Shown: positions 7,760-57,736 of the stretch, piece after piece
Numbering within the stretch: the stretch's first letter is position 1
Layout: every line of letters begins with the position of its first letter
NCBI GenBank assembly: GCA_002964805.2
Contig: PUDQ02000003.1
Location: forward strand, 3,596,001 to 3,660,000
Direction: 5' to 3'
Length of the DNA stretch: 64,000 nt
From: Trametes villosa
Lineage: Eukaryota > Basidiomycota > Agaricomycetes > Polyporales > Polyporaceae
Notes under the pieces: model-generated
The model's database searches: none
The model's input: only the letters and a program-made list of their open reading frames with translations
Told to the model about the DNA's origin: nothing
Made by a program: the position numbers and the translations under genes

Positions 7760-10204
7760 TCCGCATAGATTCCGCGACGTATTCGAGCTGACTCGCTATC
7801 GACGAGCTCGGCCATGACTTCCTGAGAAATTGCGCGCGTCAGCAAGCCGCCTGCTCATGAGAGAGGAGCGGCAAACGACGTACTCGCGCTTCGCCTTCTC
7901 CCTGCGGTCCTTAAGCACTCCTTCCCCACAGCGCGCGAATCGCCGCACAGAACGTACAGGTTCGCCCGCCCTCTTCGCGCGCGCGTCCACCCAATGCGGC
8001 CTCTCTCCGTCAGATTGCGTGTGCATTGAGATCCCGACGACGCTGGAGCCCGTCGTCGTGTGCAGCTACCTCGAGCGCATTGGCATCCGCACGCTCGCGA
8101 CGTACCCCCATCCGCCGTGATACGCCCCCCTTCGCGCCGACACGCCCACCTCCGCCGCGATACGCCTCCTCCGCCTCGACACGGTCTCCTCCGCTGCGAT
8201 ATGTCCCACCTCGCCACGACATGCATCAGGTAATCATTTGTGCCCCTCCGCCATAATACGCCCCACCCTGCCGAAATACGCACCAGCTCACAATATCCTC
8301 TGCCCTGACGCCCCCTCCGCCGCGATACGGTCCGCAGCTGTTGCTGTAGCGCGAGTAGGCGCATATACTCGTCCGTCATCTAGCATGCCAAGGACAGCGT
8401 CAGGATGGCGCTCCAAACCATTGCGCACCGAACGCACTCACCTTCGCCTCGAACGACCGATACTTATCCTCGGAGAAGCTCTGCGCCGCTTGCACATACG
8501 ACAGCTTCGGAGCGGGGTCCTACGAAAACCGCGCGGCTATCCATTAGTACACTCACGCCGACGGGCTTGAGGGGCGGCGCGACATACTGAGCTACTCGCG
8601 GCGTCCTCCAGGCAGAGCACGGCGCTCTCCACGCGTCGGGCATCCGAGTAGTAGAAGTTGCGGAGCATACCCCGGTTCTGCTCGCGCGCGTACACGTGCA
8701 GCAGCCGGCTCGCGAGCGCGAGCCGCGGCCCGCCCTCCTCGATGAGCCGGAAGAATGAGCCGAGCGAGAGCCGTTTCTGCAGGTGGAGGAGAGCATGGTA
8801 TACTGCGTGCAGCGTGCGTCGGTCAGGTGTATACCGTCGTGGAGGCAGAGAGAACGCGTACTAAGGTCGGTGTCGACGCTCTCGGCGGCCTTCGCGAGCG
8901 CGCGCTTGTCCTCCTGCATGCTGACCAGCAGGAGCACCCAAGAGCTACGCACACAGTGAGCGCTGCCTATCGCAAAAACGACGTCTTGCGGGGAACTGCG
9001 CACATATCCTAGTCACAAGCGCTGTCCGTCCCGCCTCTCACTTTGCGATGTCCGCGTAGCTCACCCCACCCCCGCCGAGCCGCTCGAACTTCTCGACGAT
9101 GACTCGGCAGAGCGCGTCCTCTCCATTGAGCTCCGCATTCTTCCGCGAGCCGCACGCGGCCGGCTTCGAGCGCAGGATCCTTGCGCATACCCAAGGATTC
9201 AGCACCGCGTCGGGGGGCAGGGCGATGTACGAGGAGATGCGGAGTGCGAGCAGGCGCAGGTTCCGGGCGAGGAGGTGCGAGATGAGGTGTGTGGGGGAGG
9301 CCTGGTGCTCTGGATGCGCTCGTCCGCTTTCGGTGACCGTCGAGAGAAGTTCTCCCATGCGTCGGAGAGGATTGCGGAGGGCAAGGTCGAGCCTGGGTGG
9401 AAGGCAGACACGGAAGATGCTATCTTCACCATGAGTATCGTAGAATATATGCAGCAGATAAGTGACGTACCGGTGACCTTCGCATGCGTCGGGCCCGATG
9501 ATGCTGATACCGGCTGGCTCAGTAACCGTGAGTGTTGACCCAGGGTAGAAGGACCTGCGAAGGAGGCGCATACATCGTTAGTCAAGTGGACCCAGCAGTA
9601 TAGATAGACGTACTGCAGAGTGTCGCCGAAAGGCCCAACCAAGACTGTGAAATGGCTCCAGGTAACAAGTACTGTGCCATTCCCGCACTACTCCACCTGT
9701 AGCACTCTGCGCCTAGTACCCCAGCCGTGTTGAACTCTGCTAGGCCACGCTGGAAGTCCGTCGAGACCACCCAGCGCAAGCCCGAGAACGTCAGCAGCGC
9801 GAGCGACTTGCCGTTCGGGGATGGGGACATGTGCGTGAATGACCCGAGCGAGATGCGCTAGTCGAGGCTCTCGAGGCTGTCCACACTGTAGATCTTCACG
9901 TCTACAGAAGGGAGCACTTCGACATGCCGGGAGATTATGGTCTGGGAGAATGCGGGGGCGGCGCGGCCGAGCGCAACAAGCTCCGTCGTATTGCGCATGA
10001 GAGCTAGCGTAAGGTACGTTTCAGCGAATACATGCGTAAATAGGCTAGCCTACAACCTATAAGCCCGCCATATCGACAGCCTGCGACGATGAAGTCCTGC
10101 TAGTCCCCAGGAAACTTGCCGAGGATAGAGTGGAGCTGGTGCCGCCGGTAGAAGACAAAACCGTCTGGCATAGCCTCTCATAAGACCGTCGGATGTTCTG
10201 TCAT
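7760..10204 (-). pseudogene. VPS16: VPS16 pseudogene, copy 1 (full span, decayed)
   Basis: Vps16 is the core alpha-solenoid/beta-propeller subunit of the HOPS and CORVET tethering complexes at the vacuole and endosome. Reading leftward from an ATG at 10204, the N-terminus is recognisable (DFIVAGCRYGG), then ALLTFSGLRWVVSTDFQRGLAEF, EDALCRVIVEKFERLGGGGVSYADIAK and finally VTDEYMRLLAL-type C-terminal sequence near 8379. It is broken from the start: the ninth codon is TGA (expected TGG) and a TAG follows KFPGD. The C-terminal exons between about 8105 and 8345 are replaced or interrupted by degenerate CCGCGATACG-type repeats. This is a clear pseudogene, convergent with repeat A copy 2. Confidence 0.9.
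8105..8345. repeat. Degenerate short tandem repeat inside VPS16 copy 1
   Basis: Imperfect units of about 20-25 nt built on CCGCGATACGCCxCC (variants CCTCGACACG, CTGCGATATG) recur here. They sit between recognisable VPS16 segments and are absent from the other copies at this place. It looks like a local expansion or insertion. Confidence 0.6.
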
Positions 10205-10429
10205 GGTCGCCGACGAGAGCCAGTAGACGAGGCCGGGTAGGTGTGGTCGAGGTCAGCGAGCAAGGTACAGTTGCACGCTGCTCGCCTACTCGCGCGCCCT
10301 CGCGCGCCTCGCGACTTGACGCGCCCGCTCTTGACCTTGCACACCACCACTAGCTCTCGCAAAACGTAGACCTCCTTGCCCTCTCGATTTCTTCGCCCTT
10401 CCCTCTCCATTCCGACGAGGTGCTAAATC

Positions 10430-10830
10430 ACTGAGCGCGCGAAGATCCTGCCCTTGAAGCCGATTTCATCCAGAACGCGGAGTTGGACAGAGAGGGCGCG
10501 CCTGGACGGGTCAGTCGACTTGACTCGGAGCGGTTCAGGCGGCTCGGCGGGGGATGGACCAGTAAACTCGGAACCTTGGACAATAGCAGCGCGAACACCG
10601 TACCTGTGAAACTTAGCCTCTCAAACTGCCAGGGCCACAATGCCGGTGAGTGAAGCACGCCACTAGTACTAGATGAGCGCATCGTTGATGACCATTCCCA
10701 GTCAACGGCACAAACGCAAGCGAGCGCCGAATGAACGGCCACAACTGAAGCATGCACGACAAGGTCACTGCGCGCGGGCCCCCGACCAGGACGAGTTCTA
10801 CTCGGACCACCGTAATGCAGACATGCACGG
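10430..10830 (+). pseudogene. VPS16: Inverted VPS16 fragment beside copy 1
   Basis: On the + strand, opposite to copy 1, the sequence GCGCGAAGATCCTGCCCTTG and the peptides QNAELDREG and RFRRLGGG match the VPS16 segment that reads KNAELDGEDALCRVIVEKFERLGGG elsewhere in the window. Near 10780-10810, DQDEFYSDHR corresponds to REQNRDMLRDFYYSDDRR. The similarity is patchy with frameshifts. It therefore looks like an old VPS16 piece in head-to-head position with copy 1. Confidence 0.6.
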
Positions 10831-14584: not shown

Positions 14585-15561
14585 GACGGATGCTGAACAG
14601 AACGAAACGAACACGCCGCGAGGTCTTCACGATCCACGGACAAACACAGGCTCGCCGCCGCCGCCGATGGCTGGACGATCGGCGTGTTCGCTCTTCGGAC
14701 CCGCGGCAGTTCGCTTCCCACATGAGATCGCGCACCAGCATCGAGCCACCGCCTCCCCGACCTCGCCGCGGCGAGTGGCTGACCTGCCAGCCGCTGTCCG
14801 TCCACCGAGCCAAACACGCCTCGCCGTTAAGAAAGACGCACCTTCGCCCAACCCACCTCTTCCCACTCCCCCCTACCCCTCCCCCCGCACCGCCCTGTTC
14901 TGTTACGGGCTACGGCTCCTGTCCTGGTAGAAAGCGGACCTGTACGGGTCGTACGGGGACCTGCCACTAGTCCTAGTGTGGCCGGTCCTGTCGGCGGCCC
15001 CCGTGCGCCTCGGCGCGGCGGCGGGTCTTACCTTTGTCGGGCGCCCTGAGCAGCCTCGCTGCCGCCTGGAGAGCTCCTCTAGGCCGGGGGTATTCTCCAG
15101 GCCGTACGAGTGTCTGCGGCGGCCTTCACGTTGCCGCCACGGCGGCGGCGTGGCACGAGATCTGAGGACCGGCGGTGCATCCCCCTCCCTCCGCCTCTAC
15201 CTCTCGTGAGTACTCTACTTCTGTCGCGCAATCTGGATGCTAACTGACTCACGTGTAGATCTTCCCTCAAGCTCTTGTCTCGGCTCCGGAAATGGTACGC
15301 TTCTTTTGGTTGGCCGGCGAGAAGTTCACTTCGTCGTGATTACTCTGGCCGCATGCCTACGGCGTGGCATGTCGTGCCCTTTACTTACAACCTGCGACGT
15401 TAGCCTCGGGCCAACAGCGCGGGTTGTAAGCAACGGGCACAGCGTGGCCGTGGTCGATTGTTGTACGATCTCGAAGTTGAGTTGTCGCGATCTTGATTCT
15501 CTGGGACGTGGTCGTGGGGCGGGGTACCAATGAATCTATAGTATTTGGAGAATGCGTACCA
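14585..15561 (+). repeat. Repeat A, copy 3 (subfamily I)
   Basis: Core nearly identical to copies 1, 2 and 7; the donor GTGAGTAC is at 15207. The hairpin is at 15384-15430, with arms less complementary than in copies 2 and 11 (GACGTT in place of GCTGTT). It is convergent with VPS16 copy 2. Confidence 0.85.
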
Positions 15562-18500
15562 GATTATAGGCTACTACATAGTACACAAATGCCGCGACCT
15601 GTTCGAGCTCCCTCGCTATCGAGTTCGGCCATGACTTCCTCGACTACCTGCGAAGCACATCAATAAGCCAACCACATGCGGAAGAGCGACGTACTCGAGT
15701 ATCCCCTAGTCTCCGCGGTATCCGCACGCCAATCGCCGCACAGGACGTAAAGGTCCGCGCGCTTGTTGCAACCCCGCCGCGCGACGAACATCACGGTCTC
15801 CTTCGGGTGGCCCTCTTCACGAGATGCTCAGAGACTGTCCCGTAGCCGATCGGACTGCGCTTCCAATGCGCGAAGAGCTTGAGGCCCTCGAAGTCGCATA
15901 TCTTTGTCAGCATGTACTAGGCCTTCGCACACCAGAAGCTGTCCAGGACTCGTCAGCTCAAGTCTGCTACGGTGGCGTCAGGAGGGGACTGACCACTTCC
16001 GTGCGTTTGACCATCCCGTTCACGAGGGAGGTAGGCATGATGTCGTTGATAGTCAATTCGAGGAACGCAACCCTGCCGCCCGCCTCCTCATAGCTGTTGC
16101 TGCAGTGTCAATGAACGCAGATGCACTCTCGCCACTCGTACGTCTACGACAGTGCTAGCAAGAGCCTTCACGGACATCGCGTTGGGGGTGCGTTCACCTT
16201 AGCCTCGAACGACTGCCATTATCCCGGCCGCGTTCACGGAAGAGAGCTTCGCGGCGGGTCCCACGTAAGTCGCGCACATATATATGCCTCAATACACTTC
16301 CACCGACGCCTGCACGGGGCATGGCGACGTATCGAGCCAGTGGCGATATCGCCGAGGCAGAGTGCTGCGCTCTGAACGTGCCGGTGGTCCGAGTTATAAA
16401 AGTTGCGGAGCATGTCACGGACCTGCGCGCGCCGCGCGCGCGTACACTTGCAGCAGTCGGCTCAGGAGCGCGAGCGGTGACCTACCTTCCTCAATGAGAC
16501 GGAAGAACAAGCCGAGCGAGGGACACTTCCACGGGCAGAGCGGGACATACAGCGTGCGTTAGTCAGGGGTAGTAAGTGTTTGCGGGTGGAAGCAATGCAT
16601 ACCGAGGTCGGTATTGACGATGTCGACGACCTTGGTGGGCGCAAGCCTATCCCTCCGCATGCCGAGCAGCAGCCGGAGCTGGTTGGATGTGTTCTTCCCG
16701 TGGTCCAGAAGCTGTGTAAGTATCAGCATTGTACCGGTTGACTCTCTATGGAAGCTATATGCGTACCCTCGGCGCGAGCGCCGTCCTGCTCACCTCCCAC
16801 GCACACTTTGCGATATCCGCGTAGCTCACCCCGTCCCCGCCGAGCCGCTTAAACTTCCCGACGATGACTAGGCACAGCGCGTCCCCGCCGTTACGCTCCA
16901 CGTTCTTCCCCGAGCCGGACGCGGCCCGCTTCAGCTTCAAACACACGAGCCTGGCGCGCGCCCAGTTCATGAGCACCGCGTCGGGCGGGAACGCGAGGTA
17001 CGAGAAGATACAAATAAGTTGAACTCGAACAGGTGAAGGTTCTGGGAGAAGAGGCGTGAGATGTGGCCGGTGTGCGAGGCCTAGTTATACCTGTCGGATT
17101 GACTGAAGGTTAGGAGGGTACGCAAGCAAGATATCGATGAACGGGGAAGGCGTACTGCAGCGTAGGAGAGCGGAATGCCAATCTTGGGGAAGCGCATGGT
17201 GTCGAGTACCTTGAGCGCCTGCCTGGCACGCACGAGGTTCGACGGGTCGTACAAGTCTAGGAACGACGGCACGAACTTCGCTGCCTACTACCACGCGCAC
17301 CGCGGTAGCCAGCGTATGTGCTAGGGAGGTCCACGCTGAGCTGCCGTCTCTGCCGATAGGGCTCCCGCTTCCGCGCCGCGGTAGCGAGCTCGGTATGTAT
17401 ACGAGAACATGCTTGCCACCGGGTTCTCGAGCGTGTCGAATGGAACCTTTGGGGTGTAGTCTTGGGCGGCTATGAGCAGGGATTGCAGGCGCGTTCGGGG
17501 AGCCCATTGTTGTGGCCGTAGACGAGGCGTTCGAGCTTGCGGGAATGAGTCGCGAGAACGAATGCTTCGGATACTCCCATTCGCCCTCGGTGGCCGCCGC
17601 GAGATATTCTCCCATGCATCGACAAGGATCGCGAACCGGGACGTCGAACCCGGACGGAAGACAGATACCGAGCACACTGCAAGCACTCAGCGTGTAGACG
17701 TGCATATAGTGGGCACATGGCGGACCTGGGGCATTTTGCACGAGATCGTAAGTGTCGGACCCGATGGTATCAATACCGTCTGGGCCGGTGAATGTTAACG
17801 TCGAGCTAGGGCAGAGTATCTGCAAGGAGGAGCGTACACGTTAACTTAGGGGACCGAGTCGTGCAGTACAGATGCACTTACTGCAAAGTGTTGCCGAGAT
17901 GCCCAGCCAAAACCGCAAGACGGCTCCAGGCAACGAGCACTGCGTCGTTCCAACACCAATCCACCCGCAGCATATCGCCCTCCCTGCCCATGAGCCCAGC
18001 CATGGAGAACTCCGCCAAGCTACGCTTGAAGCCGGTCACGAAGGCGGCCCAGAGCAAGCCCGAGGGTGCCAGCAGCGCAAGTGACTTGCAGTCGATCGGC
18101 GATGAGGACATGGGAGTCAACAAACCGTGTGAGGCGCAACAGTCGAGGCTTTCGAGGAAGTTGTCCACGCTGTAGATAGTCGCGTCCACGGAGAGGAGCA
18201 TTTGGACGTGCCGGGAGATTGTCTGTCTTTGAAGAATGACCGTCCATAGCTGCAGTGACTAGGGCAGCCCTGTGTCATTGTCAAGCTCAGCATACGCACT
18301 CAGGGAAAAACTGAGGTCGTGCGTACCTGCATTCACCAGTGTTCGCCGGTTGGGGAGTACACCTGGTTTTGCGCCGTGGAGAATGCGGGGGCGGCATAGC
18401 CGAACGCGCCGAGCTTCGTCGTATAACGCATGGGCTATCATACTATCAATATGAGCGCATACATGCATGCATAGGGTATGCTACGGACCTAGTAGCTGCC

Positions 18501-18625
18501 ACAGCGATATCCTGCAATAACAAGTCTTCAGGGAGCTGATCAGGAATATGGGTAGAGCTGCATCCCCTGCTGAAGACCGCGTCGTCCTAGGTGGTCTCCC
18601 ATAAGACCGCCGTATATTCCGTCAT
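15562..18625 (-). pseudogene. VPS16: VPS16 pseudogene, copy 2 (full span, decayed)
   Basis: From the ATG at 18625 the frame hits TAG at codon 13. Further along, recognisable pieces include SLALLAPSGLLWAAF with FKRSLAEFSMAG (18.0-18.1 kb), FLDLYDPSNLVRARQALKVLDT (17.2 kb), MNWARARLVCLKLKRAASGSGKN and GDGVSYADIAK (16.8-16.97 kb), and C-terminal pieces down to 15.57 kb. Frameshifts separate the segments. The KLKRAASGSGKN segment is shared with fragment 41575-41945 but differs from copies 1, 3 and 4 (xSKPxASGSxKN). This shows at least two source lineages of VPS16. Confidence 0.88.
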
Positions 18626-19044: not shown

Positions 19045-20050
19045 ATCCATACTGTCTTCACGGTCTATTTAAGGTAGACTGAACGGGCGTAAACGAACTC
19101 TCCGCCGTGGCCATAAGCTCACGATCGGCGCACACACTGTTCGGCCCACGACAGTTCGCTTTCCGTAGAGATCCCACCAACGTCGATCGCACCGCCGCAG
19201 CCCGCCGCATCCCCAATCGCGCCGCGGCGGAAGACTGACCTGCCAGCCGCCATCCGTATACTGGAACAAACACGCCTCACCGTTAAGAAACTCGCACCTT
19301 CGCCCGACGCACCTCTCCTAACTTCCCCTCCCTCCCCCTCCCGGGCATGCACCGCCCAGTCCTGTTACGAGCTACGGCTTCCATCCGGGTATGAAGCGGA
19401 CCTGTACGGGTCGTACGGGGGTCGGCCACCAGTCCTAGTGTGGTCGGCCCTGTCGGCGGCCCCCGTGCGCTCAAGTGCGGCGGGTCTTACCTTCGTCGGG
19501 CGCCCTGAGCAGCCTCGCTGCCGCCTGGAGAGCTCCTCTAGGTCGGGGGTATTCTCCAGGCCGTACGAGTGCCTGCGGCGGCCTTCACGTTACCGCCACG
19601 GCGGCGACGTGGCAAGAGATGTGGGGACCGGCGGTGCACCCCTCCCTTCAAGTTCGGCTCTACCTCTCGTGAGTACTCCCTGTTGTCGCGCATTCTGGAT
19701 GCTTATTGACTCACATGTAGATCTTCCCTCAAGCTCTTGTCCCGGCGGTTGCTGCATGGGTACGCTTCTTTTGGTTGGCCGGCGAGAAGTTACTTCGTCG
19801 TGATTACTTTGGCGGCATGCCTACAGCGTGGCATGTCGTGCCCTTTACTTACAACCTGCGACGTTAGCCTCGGGCCAACGGCGCGGGTTGTAAGCAATGG
19901 GCACAGCATGGCCGTGGTTGGTTGTTGGACGATCTCGGAGTTGAGTTGTCGCGATATAAATCCTCTGGGACGTGGGCGAGGACGAGGGGCCGAGTCGTTC
20001 CCTGGCTGCAAAACAGTGGGAGTAGGAGTGGTAGCGGATCATCGTGTCTA
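19045..20050 (+). repeat. Repeat A, copy 4 (subfamily III)
   Basis: It shares with copies 8 and 9 the variant leader GTCCTGTTACGAGCTACGGC and the GGGTATGAAGCGGACCTG core start. The donor GTGAGTAC is at 19669 and the hairpin at 19848-19894. The left flank (ACGGGCGTAAACGAACTCTC) matches 45868-45890. It is convergent with VPS16 copy 3. Confidence 0.85.
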
Positions 20051-20084: not shown

Positions 20085-21294
20085 TCATGGATGTCGCGAC
20101 CCTCGCGGCGTCCTCGAGGCAGAGCACGGCGCTCTCCATGCGCCGGTCGTCCGAGTAGTAGAAGTCATGGAGCATGTCCCGGTTCTGATCGCGTGCGTAC
20201 ACCTGCAGCAGCCAGCTCGCGAGCGCGAGCGGCGACCCGCCCTCCTCGATGAGCTTGAAGAACGAGCCGAGCGACAGCCGTTTCTGGAGGTGGAGGAGGA
20301 CATAGTATACTGCGTGGAGCATGCGTTAGTCAGGTGTATACAATCGGTGGTGCCGGGGCGGACGCGTACCGAGATTGGTGTCGCCGCTCTCGACGGCCTT
20401 CGCGAGCGCGCGCTTTTACTCCTGCATACGGACCAGCGGGGGTACCTGGTCGGATACCTTCGTCTCGCGGTCCAAGAGCTATGCACACAGTGAGCGTTGA
20501 ATATCGCAACAAACGACGTCTTGCGGGGAACCGCGCACGTACCCTAGTCGCGAGCGCCGTCCGCCCCATCTCCCACGCACGCTTCGCGATATCCGCATAG
20601 CTCGCCCCGACCCCGCCGAGCCGCTCGAACTTCTCGACGATCACCTAGCAGAGCACGTCCTCTCCATCGAGCTCCGCGTTCTTCCCCGAGCCGGACGCGG
20701 TCGGCTTCGAGCGCAGGAGCTTTGCGCATGCCCAGGGTTTCAGCACCGCGTCGGGGGGCAGGGCGAGGTACGAGGAGATGCGGAGCGCGAGCAGGTGCAG
20801 GCTCCGGGGGAGGAGGCGGGACATGAGTTGCGCGGGGGAGACCTGTTGTTCCGGATGCTCTTATCTGCCTTCGGCCGTCGAGAGAAGTTCTCCCATACGT
20901 CGAACAGGATTGGAGGGGGCGAGGTCGAGCATAGGCAGCAGGCAGACGAGGCTCTCTAGGTTGTCCACGCTGTAGATCATCGCGTCTACAGAAAGGAGCA
21001 CTTCGACGTGCCGGGAGATTGTCTGGTCTGGGAGAATGCGGGGGCGGCGTGGCCGAGCGCGACGAGCTTCGTCGTATCGTGCATGAAAGCTAGCGTAAGG
21101 TAGGTATTAGCGGGTATCTGCGTAAATAGGCTAGTCTGCGAACCTATGGGCCCGCCATATCGACATCCTGCGACGATGAAGTCAAGTTGCAAGTCTCCAG
21201 AAAGTTTTGCGGGAATAGAGTACAGTTAGCGCCTCCAGTAGACGATCGCGCCATCTTGCATAGCCTCCCATACGACCGCCAGATGTTCTGACAT
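20085..21294 (-). pseudogene. VPS16: VPS16 pseudogene, copy 3 (two internal deletions)
   Basis: The ATG at 21294 opens 22 codons without a stop (MSEHLAVVWEAMQDGAIVYW), then a frameshift gives TAA. After the first two N-terminal exons (HDTTKLVALGHAAPAFSQT), the sequence jumps near 20940 from the propeller (VDNLESL) straight to VCLxPxLDLAP, deleting several hundred bases. A second deletion at the 3' end fuses ESAVLCLEDAARV to ATSMK-stop, removing the last ~240 codons except the terminal five or six. In between, ALATRV, EDALxxxIVEKFERLGG and LLHLQKRLSLGSFFKLIEEGG are well preserved. Confidence 0.88.
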
Positions 21295-24879: not shown

Positions 24880-25250
24880 GCGGCAGCGTGCGAGGCTACC
24901 TTGCAATTGCTCTCGACCACACCCACGTCCGAGTCGTGGACATTGGCCTCGCCTACTTGCTCCCACCGATGATGGTGATGGAGGATCCAACGGCTTTATG
25001 CGAGACTATTCTACAGGCGGCACCAGCTCCATCCCTAGCAAGCCTCCTGGAGCTTCCAAGGATCGCAGAACGTCGACACGGTGGTACCGAGGTTTGTAGC
25101 ATAACATATACATGCACATATGCGCCCGTATTGATTGCATTCCAGCACTCAGGCGCGATACAACGCGACTCGCCGCGCTCGGGCATGCCGCGCCCATATT
25201 TGCTAGGCGCAGATCCAGGTATACTTATACTCTCTCGCGGCGGCTCGCCG
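24880..25250 (+). pseudogene. VPS16: VPS16 5' fragment on the + strand
   Basis: The leader matches the leaders of the minus-strand copies (GACCACACCCACGTC, then GGCCTCGCCTACTTGCTC). From the ATG at about 24979 the reading MEDPTALCETI corresponds to MTEHPTVL-EAM of copy 1. After a small deletion, FYRRHQLHP precedes a TAG. After the intron-like gap, YNATRLAALGHAAPIFA matches the second exon (HDTTKLVALGHAAPAFS). VPS16 homology then stops near 25220. It is an inverted, truncated copy. Confidence 0.7.
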
Positions 25251-25329
25251 GCGAAGGCATACTGCTGTTCAATGTGAATCCTCTTTCTATCATCCGCAAT
25301 GGGCATTGTATCTAACGCTCACAGTGGGA

Positions 25330-26060
25330 ACAGGACGACCGCGACCGCAACGGGCGCATCAAAGCAGACCTCCGAGGGGGAGAATGGCACCCCCCACCCC
25401 CGAGGCACATTCGACAAAGACAAGCCCGCCACGGCGCGACGAGCTGCAACTACGACGGGCCCTACGACGGGTTGGACTCCTGAGGGCGAGACCCACGCAT
25501 CAGAACGGGCCCAAGCAAGACGAGCCCGCTACGGCGTGACGCCCACGAGTGTGGACGCGCGCGACCGCAACAGGCACGGCGCCGCGGATTCCGGAACCCC
25601 CAAAGGGAGGGCGGAACTGACGCCCCCAGACGCGCCTGATAGCGTGTATCCCGGAGGAGGATCACCGCGCCCCCACCCCGAGACGCGCCCGACGACGCCG
25701 ACTCCCGTGGAGGAGCGCCGCGCCCCCCCCCCCCCTCAAGGCACAAACTTGGCACGAGCCTCCTAGGGAGGGAACGACACCCCGCCCCGAGACAGGCCTG
25801 ACGCCACACCTCAAGAGACCGCGACTCCAGACAACGACGAGGGCGACCACATACCCCCCAGGGAGGAGCACGACACCCCCACCCTAAGATGAGCCTGACG
25901 TGGACGAGCCCGTCGCGGCGCGAACGACCGCCACCGCGGACGGACACGACCGCGACAGGCGCGACGACGCAGACCCCCAAGAGGGAGTGCGGCACCTCAC
26001 TCGAGACGGATCCGACAAGGATGGCACATGCCAGAAGACAAGGTGGGCGATTGAGAGGGC
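25330..26060. repeat. Degenerate minisatellite, GC-rich
   Basis: Units of roughly 100-170 nt recur, each with a GACGAGCCCGCyrCGGCGyGACG-like part, a GCGACCGCAACAGGC-like part and a CCCCCnAAGGGAG-like part. The longest open frames here (25299-25766 + and 25462-26163 -) are repeat-derived and have no domain. Confidence 0.7.
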
Positions 26061-26839: not shown

Positions 26840-27796
26840 GCCGGAGATTAGCATCCGTTCGCGATCGGCGCACTCACTATTCGGACCCCGGGCCCGCTAC
26901 AGTTCGCTTGCCGCCAAGATCGCCCCAACATCCCCCCACCGACCCCCGACCGCGCCCCGACGCGAGGCTGACCTGCCAGCCGCTATCCGTCCACCGAGCC
27001 AAACACGCACCTCCTCAAGAAACCCTCCCCTCCCCTCCACGCAACTCTCCCCACGCCCACGCCCACGCCCACGCCCACTCCCCTCCCCTCCCCCGCACCG
27101 TCCCATTTTGTAACGAGCCTACGAGCTCCCGTCAGGATCGAAGCGGGTCTGTACGGGTCGTACGGGGGTCGGCCACTAGCCCTAGTGTGGTTGGCCCTGT
27201 CGGCGGCTTCCGTGCGCTTCGGCGCGCGGCAGGCTCTACCTTTGTCAGGCGCCCTTGAGCTGCCTCGCTGCCGCCTGGAGAGCTCCCCTAGGCCGGGGGT
27301 ATTCTCCAGGCCGTACGGGGCATGCGGCGGCCTTCACGTTGCTGCCACGGCAGCGACGTGTCAGACCTGGAAGTGGGCGGTGCTTTCCTCCATTCGCCTC
27401 TACCTCTCGTGAGTACTCCCCTCCTGTAGCGCGTCATTGGTGCTGACGAGCTTACCGGTAGATCGCCCCGCAAGCTCTCGACCTGGTCGACTAGATGGTA
27501 CGTTTCGCAAGGGTATGCTTTCTTTCTGTCGGTCGGCGAGAAGTGACTTCGTCGTGACTACCAATGCCATGGCCGCATGCCTACAGCGTGGCATGTCGTG
27601 CCCTTTACTTACAACCTGCGCTGTTCGCCTTGGGCCAGCGGCGCGGGTTGTAAGCAATGGGCACAGCATGCCCCTGGTTGGCTGTCAGGCGGTCCTGAAG
27701 TCGCGCTGTCGCGATAATGATTCTCCGGGACGTAGCCGTGGGGTGGGGTACCAGTGTATCTATAATATTCGGAGTATACGTACTAGATGATGGGAT
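26840..27796 (+). repeat. Repeat A, copy 5 (subfamily II)
   Basis: It shares with copies 6 and 11 the leader TTTTGTAACGAGCC and the core start ATCGAAGCGGGTCTGTACGG. A CCCACG hexanucleotide microsatellite lies at about 27052-27080. The donor GTGAGTAC is at 27410 and the hairpin at 27608-27654. It is convergent with VPS16 copy 4. Confidence 0.85.
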
Positions 27797-31172: not shown

Positions 31173-32348
31173 CACCATTAGTCTTACCACGACGTCGCAT
31201 CCTCCGGAGACCGGACTTCCTGAGTAGATGTGTGCCATGCCGTGCCGAACACCAAGCCCGGATCGACAAAGGCTGAAAAGCCCAGATCGCCGCCGACGTC
31301 TTCCCATTCCTAACTCAGAGGACGATCGGACGGCGGCGTGGACAGACTCGCGGTGGTGGCCAGACTCCGGGGCTGGCAGCACTCACTGTTCGGACCCGCG
31401 CGCCGGCAGTTCGCTTCCCGCCATTGCAAGATCGCCCCAACGTCCCCCCGCCGGCCTCCCCGGCTTCGCCGCGGCAAGAGGTTGACCTGCCAGTCGCTAC
31501 CCGTCCACCGAGCCAAACACGCACCTCCTTAAGAAACCCGCCCCTCCCCTCCACCCAACTCTCCCCACGCCCACGCCCACGCCCACGCCCACGCCCTCTC
31601 CCCTCCCCCTCCCCTCGCACCGTCCCATTTTGTAACGAGCCTACGAGCTCCCGTCAGGATCGAAGCGGGTCTGTACGGGTCGTACGGGGGTCGGCCACTA
31701 GCCCTAGTGTGGTCGACGCTGTCGGCGGCTTCCGTGCGCTTCGGCGCGCGGCAGGCTCTACCTTTGTCAGGCGCCCCTGAGCTGCCTCGCTGCCGCCTGG
31801 AGAGCTCCCCTAGGCCGAGGGTATTCTCCAGGCCGTACGGGGCATGCGGCGGCCTTCACGTTGCTGCCACGGCAGCGATGTGTCAGACCTGGAAGTGGGC
31901 GGTGCCTTCCCTCTTCCGCCTCTACCTCTCGTGAGTATTCCCCTCCTGTAGCGCGTCACCGATGCTGACGCACTTACCCATAGTTCATCCCTCAAGCTCT
32001 CGTCTTGGTCGACTAAATGGTATGCTTCGCAAGGGTACGCTTCTTTTTGGTTGGTCGGCGAGAAGTGACTTCGCCGTGAATACCTTGGCCGCATGCCTAC
32101 AGCGTGGCATGTCGTGCCCTTTACTTACAACCTGCGACGTTCGCCTCGGGGCCAACGGCGCGGGTTGTAAGCAACGGGCTCGGCGTGGCCCTGGTCGGCT
32201 GTCGGGCCGTCCCGGCATCTGGGTCTTGCGATATTGTGTCTCCCGCACGCGATTGGGGATGGGGAGCCTGGACCTGACCTCATTACAGGACTCTGGGAGT
32301 GGGTAGGGTGGGAGGGTATCGTCGGATGTATAACTTGTGGGTACTTCA
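31173..32348 (+). repeat. Repeat A, copy 6 (subfamily II)
   Basis: The left block (ACGACGTCGCATCCTC) matches copies 1, 9 and 10. The CCCACG microsatellite is at about 31566-31600. The core is very close to copy 5; the donor GTGAGTAT (variant) is at 31932 and the hairpin at 32124-32171. It is convergent with VPS16 copy 5. Confidence 0.85.
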
Positions 32349-33959: not shown

Positions 33960-34849
33960 GGGTGGAGAACAGTTCAGAAGGCGACGCCTGGGGACTTCCG
34001 GCTCGGGGGACGATCGGACGCAGGTGAACATGTCCGCCGTGGTGGCCAGACTCGGCCTGAGGCTGACCGCATTCACTGTTCGGGCCCGCGGCATCTCGGG
34101 TCCCGCCGAGATCCCCTCAACAACACCCCGCCGGCCTCGTCGCGGAAAGAGGCTGGCCATGTTCAACTTGTCAGCCGCCAGCTATCCACCGAGCCAAACA
34201 CTCACCCCGGTTAAAAAACCCGCGCCTCCCATCCACCCAACTCTCCCCACTCCCACTTACCCCTCCCCCCGCACCGCCCTGTTCTGTTACGGGCTACGGC
34301 TCCTGTCCTGGTAGAAAGCGGACCTGTACGGGTCGTACGGGGACCTGCCACTAGTCCTAGTGTGGCCGGTCCTGTCGGCGGCCCCCGTGCGCCTCGGCGC
34401 GGCGGCGGGTCTTACCTTTGTCGGGCGCCCTGAGCAGCCTCGCTGCCGCCTGGAGAGCCCCTCTAGGCCGGGGGTATTCTCCAGGCCGTACGAGTGTCTG
34501 CGGCGGCCTTCACGTTGCCGCCACGGCGGCGGCGTGGCGCGAGATCTGAGGACCGGCGGTGCATCCCCCTCCCTCCGCCTCTACCTCTCGTGAGTACTCT
34601 ACTTCTGTCGCGCATTCCGGATTCTAACTAACTCACGTGTAGATCTTCCCTCAAGCTCTTGTCTCGGTTGTGGAAATGGTACGCTTCTTTTTCGGTTGGC
34701 CGGCGAGAAGTTACTTCGTCGTGATTACCATGGCCGCATGCCTACAGCGTGGCATGTCGTGCCCTTTTCTTACAGCCTGCGCTGTTCGCCTCGGGCCAAC
34801 AGCGCGCGTTGTAAGCAACGGGCTCGACGTGGCCGTGGTGATCTGCCTG
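33960..34849 (+). repeat. Repeat A, copy 7 (subfamily I)
   Basis: Core nearly identical to copy 3; the donor GTGAGTAC is at 34591. The hairpin is at 34769-34815, with one change in the outer stem (ACAGCC). It abuts a short VPS16 fragment. Confidence 0.85.
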
Positions 34850-35110
34850 ACGTACTTGAGCTTTGCCTCGCCTGCAGCAGCCGGGTCGCGAGGGCGAGCG
34901 GCCACTCGCTCTCCTCGCTGCAGGGGAAGAACCAGCCGAGCGCGAGGCGCTTTTCCTGATGAGAAAACGTAGTGCATTGCGCGCCAGAAACATATGTCAG
35001 CCCTGGCGAAGGGTATACAGGACGCGATGCATACCGAAGTTGGGGTCGCCGCCTTTAACGACCTATGCGAGCGCGAGCTTGGCCTCCAGCATGCTGAAGC
35101 GCGGCGGTCG
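34850..35110 (-). pseudogene. VPS16: VPS16 fragment, copy 7
   Basis: The minus strand carries the solenoid segment around the LLxVYARxQ region (CCTGCAGCAGCCGGGTCGCG on the + strand matches GCAGCAGCCGGCTCGCGAGC of copy 1), followed by the exon seen in other copies at the xxxLALAKAVxSGD region. It is truncated on both sides and frameshifted. Confidence 0.65.
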
Positions 35111-36650: not shown

Positions 36651-36654
36651 CCAT

Positions 36655-41574: not shown

Positions 41575-41945
41575 AGGTGCGGCCCAACGTACACATCTCG
41601 AAGTCAAGCTCCGCGTTCTTCCCCGAAGCGGACGCTGCCCGCTTCAACTTCAAACACATGATCCTCGCGCGGGCGCAGTTTCCAAACGCCGCACTGGGCG
41701 GGAACGCGAGTGAGGAGAAGACGAAGAGAACTGAGCTCAAGCAGGTGTAGGTACCGGGAGAGGAGGCGGGAGATGGGGTGGGTGGACGAGGTTTGGCTAT
41801 ACCTGTCGGAGTGACAGGTGAGTAGGAGAGCACGCAAGCAGGGTGACGACGAGCGGGGAGATGTACTGGGGCGTAGGAGAGCAGAACGCCGATCCTGTAC
41901 AAGCACGCGGCGTCGCATACATTGAGGGCCTGCCCGACGCGTGAC
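41575..41945 (-). pseudogene. VPS16: VPS16 fragment left of repeat A copy 8
   Basis: The minus strand carries RVGQALNVCDAA, LYRIGVLLSYAPVHL, LFVFSSLAFPPSAAFGNCA with RARIMCLKLKRAASASGKNA and ELD. It matches the middle of copy 2 and ends abruptly at both sides. It has no start or stop and sits directly beside repeat A copy 8, which itself has a different VPS16 copy on its right. Confidence 0.8.
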
Positions 41946-42914
41946 AGACTGTACGGAGACAAACAAACCGGCGGTGGCGGTCGAAGGCTGCCATCGACGC
42001 ACACGCTGTTCGGGCCCGCGGAAGTTCGCTTCCCGCACGAGATCGGGCACCAACATCGCCCCGCCGCCTCCCCGACCTCGCCGCGGCAAGAGGCTGACCT
42101 GCCAGCCGCTGCCCGTCCACCGAGCCAAACACACCCACCACTTAAGAACCCCGCACCCCCGCCCGACGCATCTCTCCCCGCTCCCCCTCCCTCCCCGCAC
42201 TGCCCAGAACTGTTACGGGCTTCGGCTCCCACCCAGGGTACTAAGCGGACTTGTACGGGTCGTACGGGGACCTGCCACCAGTCCTAGTGTGGCTGGTCCT
42301 GTCGGCGACCCCCGTGCGCTTCGGCGCGGCGGCGGGTCTTACCTTCGTCGGGCGCCCTGAGCAGCCTCACTGCCGCCTGGAGAGCTCCTCTAGGTCGGGG
42401 GTATTCTCCAGGCCGTACGAGTGCCTGCGGCGGCCTCCATGTCACCGACATGGCAAGCGGTCTGAGATCGGGCGGTGCTTGCCTTCCTCCAGCTCTACCT
42501 CTTGTGAGTACTCCTCTTCTGTCGCGCATTCTAGATGCTAACGGGCTCACATGTAGGTCTTCCCTCAAGCTCTTGTCTCAGCTCTGGAAATGGTACGCTT
42601 CTTTTGGTTGGCCGGCGAGAAGTTCACTTCGTCGTGATTACTTTGGCCGCATGCCTACAGCGTGGCATGTCGTGCCCTTTACTTACAACCTGCGCTGTTC
42701 GCCTCGGGCCAGCAGCGCGGGTTGTAAGCAACGGGCTCGGCGTGGCCCTGGTTGGCTCTCAGACGGTCCCGACGTTGGCTTGTCCCGATGTTGCTTCTCC
42801 TGGACGTGGACGAGTATGAGGGGCTTGAACTTTCCCTGACTGCACGACACTGGGAGTGGGAGCGGCAGAGCCTCACTGCATCTATAATATCTGGACATAC
42901 CGCACTGTATCGGT
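41946..42914 (+). repeat. Repeat A, copy 8 (subfamily III)
   Basis: Donor GTGAGTAC at 42504, acceptor TAG near 42557, hairpin at 42682-42728 with nearly complementary arms. The exon-1/intron/exon-2 frame reads ...LKLLSQLWKWYASFGWPARS and continues past the hairpin. It is convergent with VPS16 copy 6. Confidence 0.85.
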
Positions 42915-45272
42915 TAGTTCGTGGCTGCCGCTACCTACTCGCGCTCCCTCGCTATCGACGAGTTCGGACAAGACTTCCCCAACTGCCTGAGCCGCGCGTC
43001 AGTAAGCCGTCCGTATATGAGAAGGGAGAAGTGGCGAACAACGTACTCGAGCTTCGCCTTGTCCCGGCGGTCCTTGCACTCCTTGCCGGAAGCGCGCGAA
43101 GAGCTCGAGGCCCTCAAAGTTGCGTACCTCGGCCAGCGCGTGCAGTCTCACGTACCAGAAACTGTACAGCGCCCGTCAGCCTGTTCACCGACTATTGTAG
43201 TCACGTAGCGGCACTGACCGCTTGTGGGGGACGTTGAAGTCTGACACGACCTTGTCTGCGTGTTGCGTTATGTCGTTCACGAGGCAGGTATGATGTCCTC
43301 GTTCATACTGAGCCCGAAGAACGTGATCTTGCTGCATGCTTCCTTCTCCAGCTGTTGCTGCAGCGCCAGGAGGCGCATGTACTCGGGCGTCGTCTGACAC
43401 GCCAAGGGCGGCGACAAGCCTAGACAAGCCTAGAAACCATTGCACACCGAAGGCACTAGAACTCGTTTCACACGACCTGTCCTTGTCTTAAGAGAAGAAC
43501 GTCTGAGCCGCTTTCACGGGCGGCTTCGCAGCCGGGACCTACGGCAGTCAAATCCACACTCATCGATACGTTTTACAGACTGTCATAAAAGAACCGCGAC
43601 ATACCATGCTGCTGGCGTGGTCCTCGAGGCAGAGCACTGCACTCTCCACGCACCGATCGTCTGAGTAGAGGAAGCCGCGAAGGATATCTCGCGGGCGTAC
43701 ATCCGCAGCCGGCTCGCGGACGCGAGCCGCTGTCCGCCCTCCTCGATGATGCGGAAGGTCGAGTCGAGCAAGAGGCATATCTGTAAGGGGAACAGAACGT
43801 GGTACACTGCACATTATACGCGTAAGCCAGGTGTGTGCGGTGAGGTGTGAAGCGGACACATACGGATGTCGGTGTCGCCGTCGCTCTCGACGGCCCTCAC
43901 GAGCCCGCGAGCTTGTCTTCCTGCGTGCCGGGCAGCAGCGATCCCTGTTGCGACGACTTCGTCTCGTGGTCCAGGAGCTGCACACACCATCCAAGGTGAG
44001 GAATACACCTGACGAATCTTGACGACGAATCGTGCAAGTACCCTCGGAGCCAGCGCCGCCCAATCCACCCCCCATGCGCTTCGCGATGTCCGCGTACCCA
44101 TCCGGCCCCGCCGTGCCACTCAAACTTCTCTGCGATGCCCTTGCAGAACGCGCCCTGGGATCTAGTTTCACTTTGGTCCCCAACCCGGAAGTGGTCGGCC
44201 GATCTCGTACAAGCGCAGCGTCGACGCACTCGTCGACTGCAGCGGCGAGCTTGGGGCAGGTGCTGCCGAAAATCTCGTCCGCCTACGGGATCGTCACTAG
44301 AAGTTCCCCCATGCGCGCCACCTGCAACACGCCGCCCTCTGTGCCTACGACTCCAGCCACGTTGAACTGCGCCGAGCGACGCCGGAGGTCCGCCGAAAGG
44401 ACCCAGGGTAGGGCCCGAGCGACTTCCCGCTCGGCGATGGGGATATGGGGGGTGAAGGGGCCACACTCGATGAACTGGCTAGGGATCTTGAGGTTATCCG
44501 CGCCGTAGATGGTAGATGGTCGCGTACACGGAGAGGAGCGCCTCGACGTGCTGGGAGGACGTCTGGTTCGGTGAAATGTCTACTCGATGCTGAAGCAGTT
44601 GCGTCTGCCTTATGTCAATCTCAGCATATGTACCCGGGGAACGACTGAGGTTGTGCTCACCTGCGTTTGCCGATGGAAACGGCTTCCCGCCCGCCCTCCC
44701 CCAGACCTACAACGATTCCGTCCACGCAACGAGATCCGTCTCGTGTATCCGCGCGCCGATGTTTCGCGTCTCATGTATCTGCACGTCGATGATCTGCGTC
44801 CCCCCGCCTGGCTTGCGAAGGGAGTACTGCTGGTGTTACTCGCCCGCTTCACTGAGCGCGAGGAGCCTCTCGTCCTCCGTCCAGCCAAACCGGGCGATCT
44901 TCACCTGCTCAACTGTACGCATGCATCAGATACAATATTTGATTCGGATCATCGAGATAGTACCCACAGTGAATAGAACGATGCATTCGCCGGCGGGACC
45001 TGGATGTGCGCAGCAAAGAATGTGGGTGCGACATGTCCGAGCCGACGAGCTTCGTCGGATCACACATGGGACCTAGTATACAGCTAATACAGTGCATATA
45101 TGCATGTCTCAGTTATGTTACGAACCTATGGGCCCGCCACATCGACACCTGGCGATGATGAAGTCCTGCAAGTCCCAAGGAAGCTTGCCGGGGACGAGGT
45201 AGAGCTGGTGTCGCCAATAGAAGACAGCGCCATCATGCAGTGACCCCATAAGACCGCCAGATGTTACACCAT
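42915..45272 (-). pseudogene. VPS16: VPS16 pseudogene, copy 6 (full span, decayed)
   Basis: The ATG at 45272 is followed by TAA at codon 3, but the same frame afterwards still reads QLYLVPGKLPWDLQDFIIAR with CGGPIGS. A DPTKLVGSDMSHPHS segment marks the second exon. In the solenoid half, VESAVLCLEDHASS and MYHVLFPLQICLLLDSTF-type sequence are visible near 43.6-43.8 kb. At the 3' side a KLEYVV segment lies at 43.05 kb. Parts of the middle are missing or heavily altered. Confidence 0.85.
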
Positions 45273-45844: not shown

Positions 45845-47030
45845 ACGTTCTAGGGAAGATTTTACGGGCGTAAACAGACTCTCCGCCGTAGCCGGAGGCT
45901 GGCCGCTCGGCGCAGAGTCGCTATTCGGGCCTGCGACAGCAATCGGTTTCCGCTAGGACCCTGGGCCGCAGTATTATCGCCGGGCCCATAGCCTCCTGAA
46001 CCTCGCCGTGACGAGACGTCGCCATAATGATACTATGCCGCGACGGCGTCGCATCTCTGGATTCTCTCAACGCATGCGTCTTGGGCGATGCTATACACCC
46101 GTAGTGGGTTCGCCACCGGATGCGGGACAGTACGACCCCGCGGCGTCTCTACGCTCGACGAGACTGCACGAACATAAACAAACTCGCCGTGGCGGTCGAA
46201 TCGAAGGCTGCCATCGGCGCACACAGTACTGTTCGGGCCCGCGGCATCTCGCTTCCCGCCGACATCCCACCGGCATCGCTCCACCGCCTCCCCGACCTCG
46301 CCGCGGCAAGAGGCTGACCTGCCAGCCGCTGTCCGTCCACCGAGCCAAACACACCCACCCCTTAAGAAAGCCACACCCTCACCCGACGCACCTCACCCGA
46401 CGCACCTCTCCCCACCCCCCTCCCTCCCCCGCACCGCCCAGTCCTGTTACGAGCTTTGACTCCCATCCGGGTATGAAGCGGACCTGTACGGGTCGTACGG
46501 GGATCGGTCGTCAGTCCTAGTGCGGCCGATCCTGTCGGCGGCCCCCGTGCGCTTCGGCGCGCGGCGGGTCTTACCTTCGTCGGGCGCCCTCAAGCAGCCC
46601 TGCTGCCGCCTGGAGAGCTCCTCTAGGTCGGGGGTATTCTCCAGGCCGTACATGCGCTGTGGGAGCCTTCACGTTACCGCCTCGGCGGCGACGTGGCAAG
46701 AGATGTGGGGACCGGCGGTGCATCCCTCCCTCCAGCTCTCCCTCTCGTGAGTGACACCGTCTACTGCACATTCTGGGTACTGATTGGCTCGTGCAGGTCC
46801 TTCCTCAAATTCTTTTCTCGGCTCGTGAAATGGTACGCTTCTTTTGGTTGGCCGGCGAGAAGTCTACATCGTCGTGATTACCATGGCCGCATGCCTACCA
46901 TCGTGGCATGTTGTGCCCTTTACTTACAACCTGCGACGTTCGCCACGGGCAAACAGCACGGGTTGTAAGCAATGGGCACAGGATGCCCATGGTCGACTGT
47001 CAGACGGTCACGACGCTGAGGGGCGTTTTG
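45845..47030 (+). repeat. Repeat A, copy 9 (subfamily III, with a duplicated 5' part)
   Basis: A partial 5' segment (45845-46010, with ACGGGCGTAAACAGACTCTC) precedes a second, complete element that starts with the left block at 46023 (ATAATGATACTATGCCGCGA). The donor GTGAGT lies at 46748 and the hairpin at 46923-46969. There is no VPS16 on its right, in contrast to copies 2-8. Confidence 0.8.
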
Positions 47031-47204: not shown

Positions 47205-48100
47205 TAATACTCATACCGCGACGCGATGTCGCATCCTCCCGTACACCCTCAACCCATGCGGCTGCAGTACACATCGACGGGGCCGACAGAGGCGCGTGCC
47301 AGCCCTCGCTCCGAATCGGCGCCGCGACTCCGTACTGTTCGGTTCCGCACGCCGGCGGCTCGGTTCGCGCTGGGACCTGCACGAACGTCACCCACGGCCT
47401 CCTCCCCGACTCCGAGTTCGCCGCGGCAAGTGGCTGACAGCGCTCGACATGCCAGCCTCTCTCCATCCACTGGGCCAAACAAGCACGGTGGACAATAGAC
47501 CAGGGCCTCGAGCCCCCCCTCCTCATAGGTTCCCCCTCTTCTCCCCACACGTTTCCTCCTTTCTCTTCACACGTTTCCCCTCTTCCCCTGCACCGCTGTC
47601 TTATTCTGGTACGAGCCGGCGAGCAATCGTCGGGCTCCCTGTCCTGGCTGGAGCGGTCCTGTACCAGTCGTACGAGGGTCGGCCACTTGTGGTCGTGCCT
47701 ATCGGCGGCTTCTGTGTGCCTCTGGCGCGCGGCTGGGCTTACCTTCACGGGGCGCGGGTTTAAAGTCACCCTGCACTGTTGCGGATGCCCTCAGCGGCTC
47801 CGGCCGCTGACGGCTCTCATAGAGCAGACGTGCACCGCGCCTTCTCCCGCCGCCACTTCGGTGGCGGTGGGCGGGACTTGCAGGGTGGGCGGTGCTCATC
47901 GACTCTACCCCTTCAAGACCGTCGGTTTGTGCATTTCTTTCTTTCCCGGCGAGGCGGTCACTTCGACGTCTGGCCACATGCCTGGGTCTTGTCGCACCCT
48001 TTCCTTACAACCTGCGATGTTAGCCTCGGGCTAGCCTCGCGGGTTGTAAGAGAGGGACCGTAGCGGGACCATGGTCGGTTGTCAGGCGATCTCGAAGTCA
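47205..48100 (+). repeat. Repeat A, copy 10 (diverged)
   Basis: This is the most diverged copy, recognisable by the left block (TAATACTCATACCGCGACGC), GTACCAGTCGTACGAGGGTC in the core, GGCGCGGGTTTAAA, and the hairpin at 48004-48050 (CTTACAACCTGCGATGTT ... GCGGGTTGTAAG). The intron motif is not conserved. Retention of the hairpin despite divergence elsewhere suggests constraint or a recombination hot spot. Confidence 0.7.
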
Positions 48101-56343: not shown

Positions 56344-56994
56344 GTCTACTGCGTCTGCTTATGCGTCTGCGGGGGCGTTCGTGGACGTGGGTCGTGAGGT
56401 CTGGCTGGGGTCGTGAGGTTCGGGAAGGCGGGAGAACAAGGACGGTTAGACGCTTGTTGGCGGGCGATTTTCGGGGTCGGGCGACAGCACCGGGGGCGGT
56501 GGGGTGCGCAGTGCGCTGACTGGGCTGCCTGTCGAGCGGAACGTTGGCCGCCGGATGCGTACGATGTCGAGAAAATTGGAGGACGCGGCGGAAGATAACG
56601 AGCGTCGGATGATGCTCAGCTCTCTCGCCCTCGTGGACCGCGCGCCACCATTCCAGAGCGGAGTCCGAGCGGGCTTCCAATCTCCCCCCTCCTGGCCCAG
56701 CCCGCGGTCTCACCAGCGCAGTCCTCTTGCGCTTTGTCTTCAAAACATACGCCGTGCAAACATATTCCGAGTGACGACCAAACCAGTGGGATTGACACAC
56801 ACTGAGACAAACGACTCTAGCTCAGAGCAACGATTGCTACAGGCTACCCCCGAGTACTCTCTCCATTCGGCTACAGAGTCAATACCGTCTCTACAGAGTA
56901 GCCGCGAATCGCGAAGGCCTGCAGCTGCATACAACGACCAAGAGCTGAGAGTAGGGCATCGACCAGGCGGAACAGCAAGCACTAAACTTTTGTA
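56344..56994. other. GLC7 promoter side and junction to the inverted VPS16 fragment
   Basis: This is the upstream region of the phosphatase gene; toward 56850 it merges into intron-like sequence that precedes the VPS16 exon at 56999. No other gene is recognised. Confidence 0.45.
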
Positions 56995-57736
56995 GGTCCC
57001 GCCGCGAAGCTCTTGTCTGTGAAAGCGGCGCAGAAGTTCTTCTCCGAGGATACGAACCGGTCGTCCGAGGCGAAGGTGAGCGCACGATGGCAAGTACTAG
57101 GCACTCTTGCTGACATCACCCCGGGCAATATAGGTGACGGACGAATACATGCGCCTGCTCGCGTTGCGGGAACAGCTAGAGAAGGGGGCATACGGCAAGA
57201 TCGCGTTCTTCGGGCTGAGCGTGAACGAGACCATCCGCACCTGCCTCGTGAACGGCAGCGAAACGCGCGGATGAGTTCAAGTCGGTCTTTAAGCTTCAAG
57301 ACCCCCGACAAACGGTCAGTCTCTCCCCCTGGCCCCGGCCATGGACAGCTTCTGGTACGTGAAGCTGCACGCGCTGACGGAGGTCCGCGACTTCGAGGGT
57401 CTTGAGCACTTCGCGCACTCGAAGCGCAGCCCGATCGGCTACGAGGCGTTCGTGAAGCACCTCGTGGAGAAGGGCCACCCGAAGGAGGCGGGGACGTTCG
57501 TCGCGCACTGCGACGGCCCCAAGAGCGCGGACCTGTACGGCCTGTGCGGTGACTGGCGCGTTGCCGGGAAGGAGTGCAAGGACCGGGGGACAAGGCGAAG
57601 CTCGAGTGCGTCGTTTGCCGCGCCTCCTCTCATATGCGGGCGGATTACTGACACGCGGCACAGGCAACTGAGGAAGTCTTGTTCGAACTCGTCGGTAGCG
57701 AGGGAGCTCGAGCAGGTCGCGGCATCCATGAACTAG
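56995..57736 (+). pseudogene. VPS16: VPS16 3' portion on the + strand (least decayed copy)
   Basis: Exons read AAKLLSVKAAQKFFSEDTNR with SSEAK, then VTDEYMRLLALREQLEKGAY with GKIAFFGLSVNETIRTCLVN, then PDKR, then FWYVKLHALTEVRDFEGLEH with FAHSKRSPIGYEAFVKHLVE, GHPKEAGTFVAHCDGPKSAD and GDKAKLE, then QLRKSCSNSSVARELEQVAA with SMN and TAG at 57734-57736. These are the terminal exons of the Vps16 C-terminal domain with intact introns. A frameshift in GSE-KRADEF near 57263 gives a premature TGA, and a base is missing in the GDKAK region near 57587. The N-terminal ~600 residues are absent. Repeat A copy 11 lies tail to tail with it. Confidence 0.88.

Follow-up and report, generated by a model that had tools for sequence, protein, structure and literature searches.

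In the 5S rRNA and snRNA arrays, RNA genes stand in tandem in many copies and evolve in concert, and retrozymes and SINE-like non-autonomous elements are short, non-coding and present in many copies, with structured RNA. The locus described here, examined in a window of 64,000 nucleotides of Trametes villosa DNA and in the contig around it (C3), contains a non-coding element of ~770 bp, found in 24 full-length copies within 367 kb of that one contig, 10 of them in the window. Like the 5S rRNA and snRNA arrays, it appears to consist of many near-alike, clustered RNA genes that exchange variants by recombination; unlike them, its units are irregular, lie in mixed orientation, diverge by 7–22% and mostly carry a decayed protein gene, and the predicted product is a two-domain RNA of ~540 nt with a spliceosomal-type intron and no Rfam match. 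The element is short, non-coding, structured and multicopy, as are retrozymes and SINE-like elements, but it is not dispersed, its copies share flanks, and it combines a spliceosomal-type intron with the lack of any match to a ribozyme or other Rfam family. The decayed gene is VPS16, whose multiple dead copies recall the processed (retroposed) pseudogenes of a housekeeping gene, from which they differ in retaining introns and the 3' flank. We put the probability at roughly 0.6 that a structured non-coding RNA gene has multiplied here into an array, together with VPS16 passengers that decayed. Possible polypore ncRNA transcripts are also on record as the long non-coding RNAs of Ganoderma and of Sparassis (PMC4059649, PMC10772075), which differ in that they read as transcript catalogues. 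Among the matches listed in the literature (titles and starts of abstracts), no paper on the array or its RNA was found.

An earlier note had drawn attention to the window for at least eleven decayed VPS16 copies and fragments, and this identification holds. All 11 places align, near the coordinates claimed, to the intact VPS16 of the same genome, which served as reference (best E values of the individual copies between 0 and 6.8e-14), and in a check named beforehand, Vps16_N or Vps16_C exceeded the Pfam cut-offs at four places in the window. At 29388–30176 of the window, minus strand, Vps16_N scores 2.5e-16. The genome search returned one intact VPS16, at C3:3548894-3552207, ~44 kb to the left of the window. 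It has 14 exons and 847 codons, its protein (exons joined by hand) matches PDB 8dit_B (3.4e-184), and it lies amid nine further decayed copies or fragments (C3 3,544–3,580 kb), such that the cluster exceeds the window. The VPS16 matches found in the genome are confined to this C3 cluster; four weaker HSPs were left out of the copy count.

Four copies in the window span the full gene, all on the minus strand (copy 1, 7758..10204; copy 2, 15579..18625; copy 3, 27796..30655; copy 4, 42915..45272), and two on the same strand are internally deleted (20102..21294 and 32361..33604). The remaining five are fragments: 10354..10572 (plus strand, inverted relative to its neighbour), 25007..25338 (plus strand, 5' part), 34869..35107 and 41604..41938 (both minus strand), and a 3' fragment at 56986..57736 (plus strand), the least diverged of all with 89.6% in exons. 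No functional VPS16, that is, an intact frame with splice sites, was found in the window, all 11 copies being decayed or fragmentary: premature stops occur in nine, and the fragments at 41.6 kb and 57 kb, stop-free across their aligned codons (0 stops in 193 codons in the latter), are truncated and carry indels. As had been claimed, each full-span copy is interrupted within its first 13 codons (first stops at codons 9, 13, 9 and 3 in copies 1 to 4), with further stops in copy 1 at codons 35, 215, 274, 534, 551 and 723. The TGA at codon 9, where the intact gene has TGG, had been assigned to copies 1 and 4; we find it in copies 1 and 3, with TGG in copies 2 and 4. We rejected it as a marker of shared descent because its carriers (copies 1 and 3 and one more at 3561 kb) are not mutual nearest relatives among the pairs compared. 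Intron positions are retained in the copies, which must thus have been copied as DNA, as the earlier note had concluded, and retroposition was rejected on the same ground. At 14 lineage-special sites the copies show the derived residue in 48 cases, the ancestral residue in 8 and some other in 37, a tally that places their origin probably later than the divergence from the six closest relatives that have been sequenced.

The intact VPS16 has the element at its 3' side, as do 16 of the 20 decayed copies; the VPS16-linked element copies have flanks in common (viewed by eye), and no VPS16 was detected alongside 7 of the 24 elements. In the window, nine copies are on the plus strand. Copy 1 (3131..3889), with no VPS16 found adjoining, would comprise a promoter-like part, exon 1 (3310-3629), an intron (3630-3682) and exon 2 (to 3889), and copy 2 (6887..7652; predicted exon 1 7073-7392) faces VPS16 copy 1. 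They are followed by copies 3 (14687..15465; exon 1 likewise predicted at 14886-15205), 4 (19133..19929; 19348-19668), 5 (26873..27689; 27094-27408), 6 (31382..32206; 31616-31930), 7 (34072..34850; 34270-34589), 8 (42002..42763; 42196-42503) and 9 (46222..47004; 46430-46746), the last again with no VPS16 found adjoining. A plus-strand relic of the 3' domain only (47933..48086) scores 75.4 bits to the covariance model, and copy 10, on the minus strand (57884..58684; predicted exon 1 58160-58475), faces the VPS16 3' fragment at 56986..57736.

A coding function of the element was rejected, since no codon-phase pattern was found, the longest ORFs differ between copies, and two of its ORFs have no protein homologue at E ≤ 1. 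A known RNA family, ribozymes included, was rejected as well: Rfam 15 gave 0 matches at the gathering cut-off in the whole window, the single match within 2900-4200 (38 nt, E 0.57) is far under its cut-off, and the window contains no tRNA. A conserved 19-mer had 0 matches in a viral-contig scan. Linkage to a mating-type locus was rejected, with STE3 matches on C10 and the sole Homeobox_KN match on C49, and repeat-induced or CpG mutation was discarded with element C>T at 0.072 at CpG vs 0.074 elsewhere.

Constraint across the 24 copies sits in this element next to VPS16, and a conserved RNA fold was found on the strand facing VPS16. Counts of fold and substitutions cover 24 copies and only those columns in which half of the copies or more have a residue; of two alignments used, A2 comprises 23 of the 24 copies and A3 all 24. 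The whole fold has 146 pairs, with 98.3% of cells paired vs 38–48% when slid and changes on both sides at 17 pairs vs 2–9 when slid, the fold being predicted from the same alignment on which pairs are counted; its RNAalifold z is -7.75 (60 column shuffles). G-U outnumbers A-C by 583 to 23 in the 24 copies, divergence is 7.2% at paired vs 15.3% at unpaired sites, and 58 pairs are broken vs 200 expected. The 5' domain is formed at 98.8% of its 93 pairs in the 24 copies, and 15 pairs show compensatory changes in 86 cells, a number not reached in 500 shuffles (1–4 pairs when slid); four of five measures were reached by 0/500 shuffles and the fifth, pair types, by 242/500. The 3' domain alone covaries weakly (3/51 pairs, 23 of the 24 copies), its five measures being reached by 26, 118, 67, 202 and 48 of 500 shuffles. 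The 53-nt spliceosomal-type intron keeps GT and AG in 24/24 copies, with invariant splice sites and most other intron columns variable; among the decayed VPS16 copies, 68 of 95 introns whose two splice sites both align do so (Fisher p = 0.0018, the copies not being independent). The invariant splice sites suggest that the RNA is transcribed and spliced, and with a compensatory fold and no conserved frame the element has the sequence features of a structured non-coding RNA gene. Weak covariation in the 3' domain and weak constraint on private changes count against an RNA-gene array.

Those private changes break a pair in 33 of 63 cases vs 42.2 expected, or in 21 of 39 vs 25.6 expected when the two copies richest in them, one of which is element copy 9, are removed. 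Single copies may therefore be redundant or decaying, and a selfish structured RNA element has to be weighed, spreading locally by insertion or conversion and provoking inverted duplications of the adjacent gene, with a fold that serves its own propagation and not the host. That common variants respect the fold and private ones hardly do is expected of copies descended from active masters. The element also adjoins duplications at three places: the VPS16 units, a second element pair at C3 3811491(+)/3865439(-) with homologous flanks beside an F-box-like reading frame, and a site on C1 where an unrelated gene is present as inverted copies of 2.1 kb (82%) and a truncated element copy occupies the spacer of ~400 bp that separates them. 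A mobile element would explain this truncated copy and the seven elements without VPS16 too. We nevertheless consider a selfish element rather unlikely. Dispersal through the genome was not observed, at least 27 of at least 28 matches lying within C3 3,499,657-3,866,161 with one relic elsewhere; each VPS16-linked copy adjoins the 3' side of its VPS16 and has flanks in common with the others; and neither a coding pattern nor, by eye, an insertion signature was seen.

Recombination among the elements is clear: linkage disequilibrium drops with distance and PHI is 0.401 vs 0.506 (sd 0.014) when permuted, so that the element copies, judged by this exchange between them, are a multigene family under concerted evolution (conservation, divergence and recombination were counted in columns filled in at least 60% of copies, insertions left out). 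Segmental duplications, both direct and inverted, are the dominant feature of the region, and a tract of 89.8% identity (3602893-3603823 / 3610709-3611640) extends ~170 bp beyond the element into the VPS16 side. The array could thus be neutral, the product of unequal exchange in a recombination-prone region, with the element no more than the stretch that gene conversion homogenised, and private changes are indeed nearly as frequent at paired as at unpaired sites (63 at 292 and 60 at 245). Copies differ by 7–22% in the element and by 11–43% in the adjacent VPS16 (correlation -0.01), VPS16 being the more diverged in 85 of the 86 unit pairs that offer 400 or more comparable bases and in all 73 pseudogene–pseudogene pairs. 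Conversion alone leaves unexplained that paired sites diverge overall half as fast as unpaired ones, that G-U exceeds A-C, and that splice sites are invariant in a variable intron, and we regard a neutral array as improbable.

Among the causes suggested in the earlier note, a recombination-prone locus agrees with these duplications, whereas selection on VPS16 or its dosage is unsupported, since an intact VPS16 exists and stops are shared by copies. Amplification of VPS16 for dosage, followed by its death, would fit the presence of VPS16 in most units and of one intact copy. Stops at codons 180, 441 and 847 are common to three copies, however, and those at 180, 441, 442 and 847 to copy 3 and the copy at C3:3565149-3567733, pointing to a dead sequence that was duplicated again (or to spread by conversion); divergence within pseudogene pairs extends to every codon position (0.27, 0.30 and 0.34, pooled), and the conserved part is the neighbouring element. 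We therefore disfavour it as very improbable. An assembly artefact, by unmerged haplotypes or misjoins, is least credible of all: the copies are known here from the assembled contig alone, but the VPS16 parts compared differ by 11–43%, and copies with different flanks and deletions lie within one 4.68-Mb contig.

In an RNA-gene array with passengers, the typical unit would be an RNA gene with VPS16 as its convergent neighbour. RNA polymerase II would transcribe the RNA from the promoter-like ~200 bp, and the RNA would be spliced, fold into two domains and act in trans. The RNA genes would owe their preservation and amplification to selection for the RNA or for its dosage, gene conversion would keep them alike, and the extra VPS16 copies, which look like passengers copied along with the RNA gene, would decay while one VPS16 was kept. 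More tentatively, and with some doubt, the element may represent a new class of structured, spliced mushroom RNA element that multiplies together with the gene beside it, often in inverted repeats, is kept uniform by its own gene conversion and leaves the neighbour as a pseudogene array by way of collateral; it would be either a new RNA that acts in trans at high gene dosage or a palindrome-generating selfish RNA.

A pseudogene array that would otherwise be filed as genomic noise thus borders a conserved RNA fold with strong statistics and no Rfam match, a candidate for a previously unrecognised and apparently spliced RNA gene of a wood-decay fungus. The locus would carry its own internal control, in that RNA gene and VPS16 passenger were duplicated together and one is conserved while the other decays, and it can be tested elsewhere whether dead gene arrays mark selected non-coding neighbours. 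If expressed, the element would constitute a large unknown RNA family of a wood-decay mushroom lineage.

Genome searches covered the 46.7-Mb genome in its 140 contigs. Spliced alignment to the Trametes gibbosa protein revealed an intact VPS16 at C3:3548894-3552207(-) (C3 is contig PUDQ02000003.1), with 14 exons, 847 codons and no internal stop, approximately 44 kb to the left of the window, which spans C3:3596001-3660000. The VPS16 proteins scoring best against the hand-joined protein came from Pilatotrama, Trametes gibbosa, Lenzites and Cubamyces (92-93% identity). With the intact gene as query, we recovered all 11 places in the window where the earlier note had reported decayed VPS16, as well as nine additional copies or fragments at 3,544-3,580 kb, left of the window, a count that leaves out four weaker VPS16 HSPs. 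That observation was right and precise except for one codon detail, namely which copies carry TGA at codon 9. Genome matches to Pfam Vps16_N (8 of 8 candidates scored) and Vps16_C (10 of 10) were confined to C3 3,544-3,654 kb, as were those to the T. gibbosa protein among the 53 of 65 candidates scored. Apparently ordinary genes, for a DEAD-box helicase and a PH-domain protein, lie amid the VPS16 copies at 50713-52689 and 59368-62178 of the window, which also holds frames resembling, by eye, a Ser/Thr phosphatase (55243-56281(-)) and 7.1 mismatch-free repeats of a 16-bp unit (11774-11887). Elsewhere, clustered STE3-type receptor matches at C10:124824-167349 likely mark the B mating-type locus.

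Stops are present in 17 of the 20 decayed copies, and 13 to 56% of the residues invariant in 15 relatives are altered. For pairs of pseudogenes sharing 450 or more comparable coding bases, the pooled difference at codon positions 1, 2 and 3 was 0.27, 0.30 and 0.34, near the expectation under loss of constraint. At 14 lineage-specific sites, defined as differing from the six best-matching relatives, the residue in the decayed copies is derived in 48 cases, ancestral in 8 and of another kind in 37; unless these sites were reset by conversion from the intact gene, the copies probably originated within this lineage. Stops at codons 180, 441 and 847 are common to three copies (3,565 kb, 3,577 kb and 27.8 kb of the window): already dead sequence was copied anew or was spread through conversion. 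The array region consists of direct and inverted segmental duplications, for example an inverted one of 5.5 kb and 90.6% identity (3568693-3574144 versus 3632626-3638099). Another inverted repeat (C3:3526572-3528907 / 3536166-3538541; 2.4 kb, 73%) lies left of the array.

The intact gene and 16 of the 20 decayed copies each have an element of ~770 bp on their 3' side, the other four decayed copies being fragments of 219-335 bp. This element occurs in 24 full-length copies, 10 of them in the window, and seven of the 24 have no detected VPS16 adjoining. Outside the array, two distant copies, C3:3811491-3812274(+) and C3:3865439-3866228(-), have opposite orientations and homologous flanks and adjoin a reading frame that is F-box-like by eye; a truncated copy sits in the ~400-bp spacer between the arms of a 2.1-kb inverted duplication (82%) of another gene, membrane-protein-like by eye (C1:6919357-6923935). 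Relative to the consensus, copies show 82-90% identity and, over its 770 columns, 0-21 gaps (insertions disregarded), and we looked for a coding pattern in them and found none. A covariance-model search matched no Rfam family, and no paper listed in literature searches dealt with the array or the element RNA. Among 86 pairs of units (element plus convergent VPS16) comparable over 400 or more VPS16 bases, VPS16 diverges more than the element in 85, with a correlation of -0.01 between the two divergences; the sole exception pairs the intact gene with the copy at 20 kb of the window (21.3 against 21.8%).

With its intron-like segment removed, the element is predicted by RNAalifold on the 24 copies to form 146 pairs at -186.7 kcal/mol (z -7.75 versus 60 column shuffles), compared with -130.0 kcal/mol for the opposite strand (z -4.1 versus 30 shuffles). 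In the whole fold 98.3% of 3493 cells are paired and both sides have changed in 17 pairs, against 38-48% and 2-9 when partners are slid, although the fold has an advantage here, having been predicted from the alignment used for the counts. Broken pairs number 58, versus 200 expected if the same substitutions are placed randomly. In the 5' domain, both sides have changed in 15 of 93 pairs (86 cells; 1-4 pairs in slid structures). None of 500 shuffles attained this domain's percentage paired, pairs changed, cells changed or covariation score, while 242 attained its number of pair types; pair count is the safer measure, as score and percentage can surpass shuffles in related sequences without structure. 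Strong conservation of the 3' domain leaves little room for covariation there (3 of 51 pairs; the five measures attained by 26, 118, 67, 202 and 48 of 500 shuffles). A DNA palindrome is disfavored by the 583 G-U cells against 23 A-C cells, an excess that speaks for RNA and fixes the strand.

The transcribed-looking part is interrupted by a 53-nt segment that begins with GTGAGT or a close variant, contains a CTRA branch-point-like motif and ends in AG. Although it is among the element's most variable stretches, all 24 copies retain GT, AG and the branch A and C of the motif; by comparison, both splice sites are retained in 68 of 95 introns of decayed VPS16 copies where both could be aligned. 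The RNA is putatively transcribed and spliced.

Element copies exchange variants, since linkage among 133 informative variants declines with distance and a PHI-like statistic is low (0.401 versus 0.506 permuted, sd 0.014, 300 permutations); one copy has its closest relative 103 kb away. The fold is respected by common variants but scarcely by private ones, of which 33 of 63 break a pair versus 42.2 expected (21 of 39 versus 25.6 once the two copies with most private variants are left out). Private changes occur almost as often at paired sites (63 at 292) as at unpaired ones (60 at 245). Redundant copies mended by conversion would fit this pattern, as would a selfish element having a few active masters. 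The earlier note had framed the array as repeated amplification and death of VPS16, a framing that is reversed here: what is amplified and conserved, and may be functional and under selection for dosage, is best interpreted as a multicopy gene for a structured RNA, and VPS16 as its passenger.
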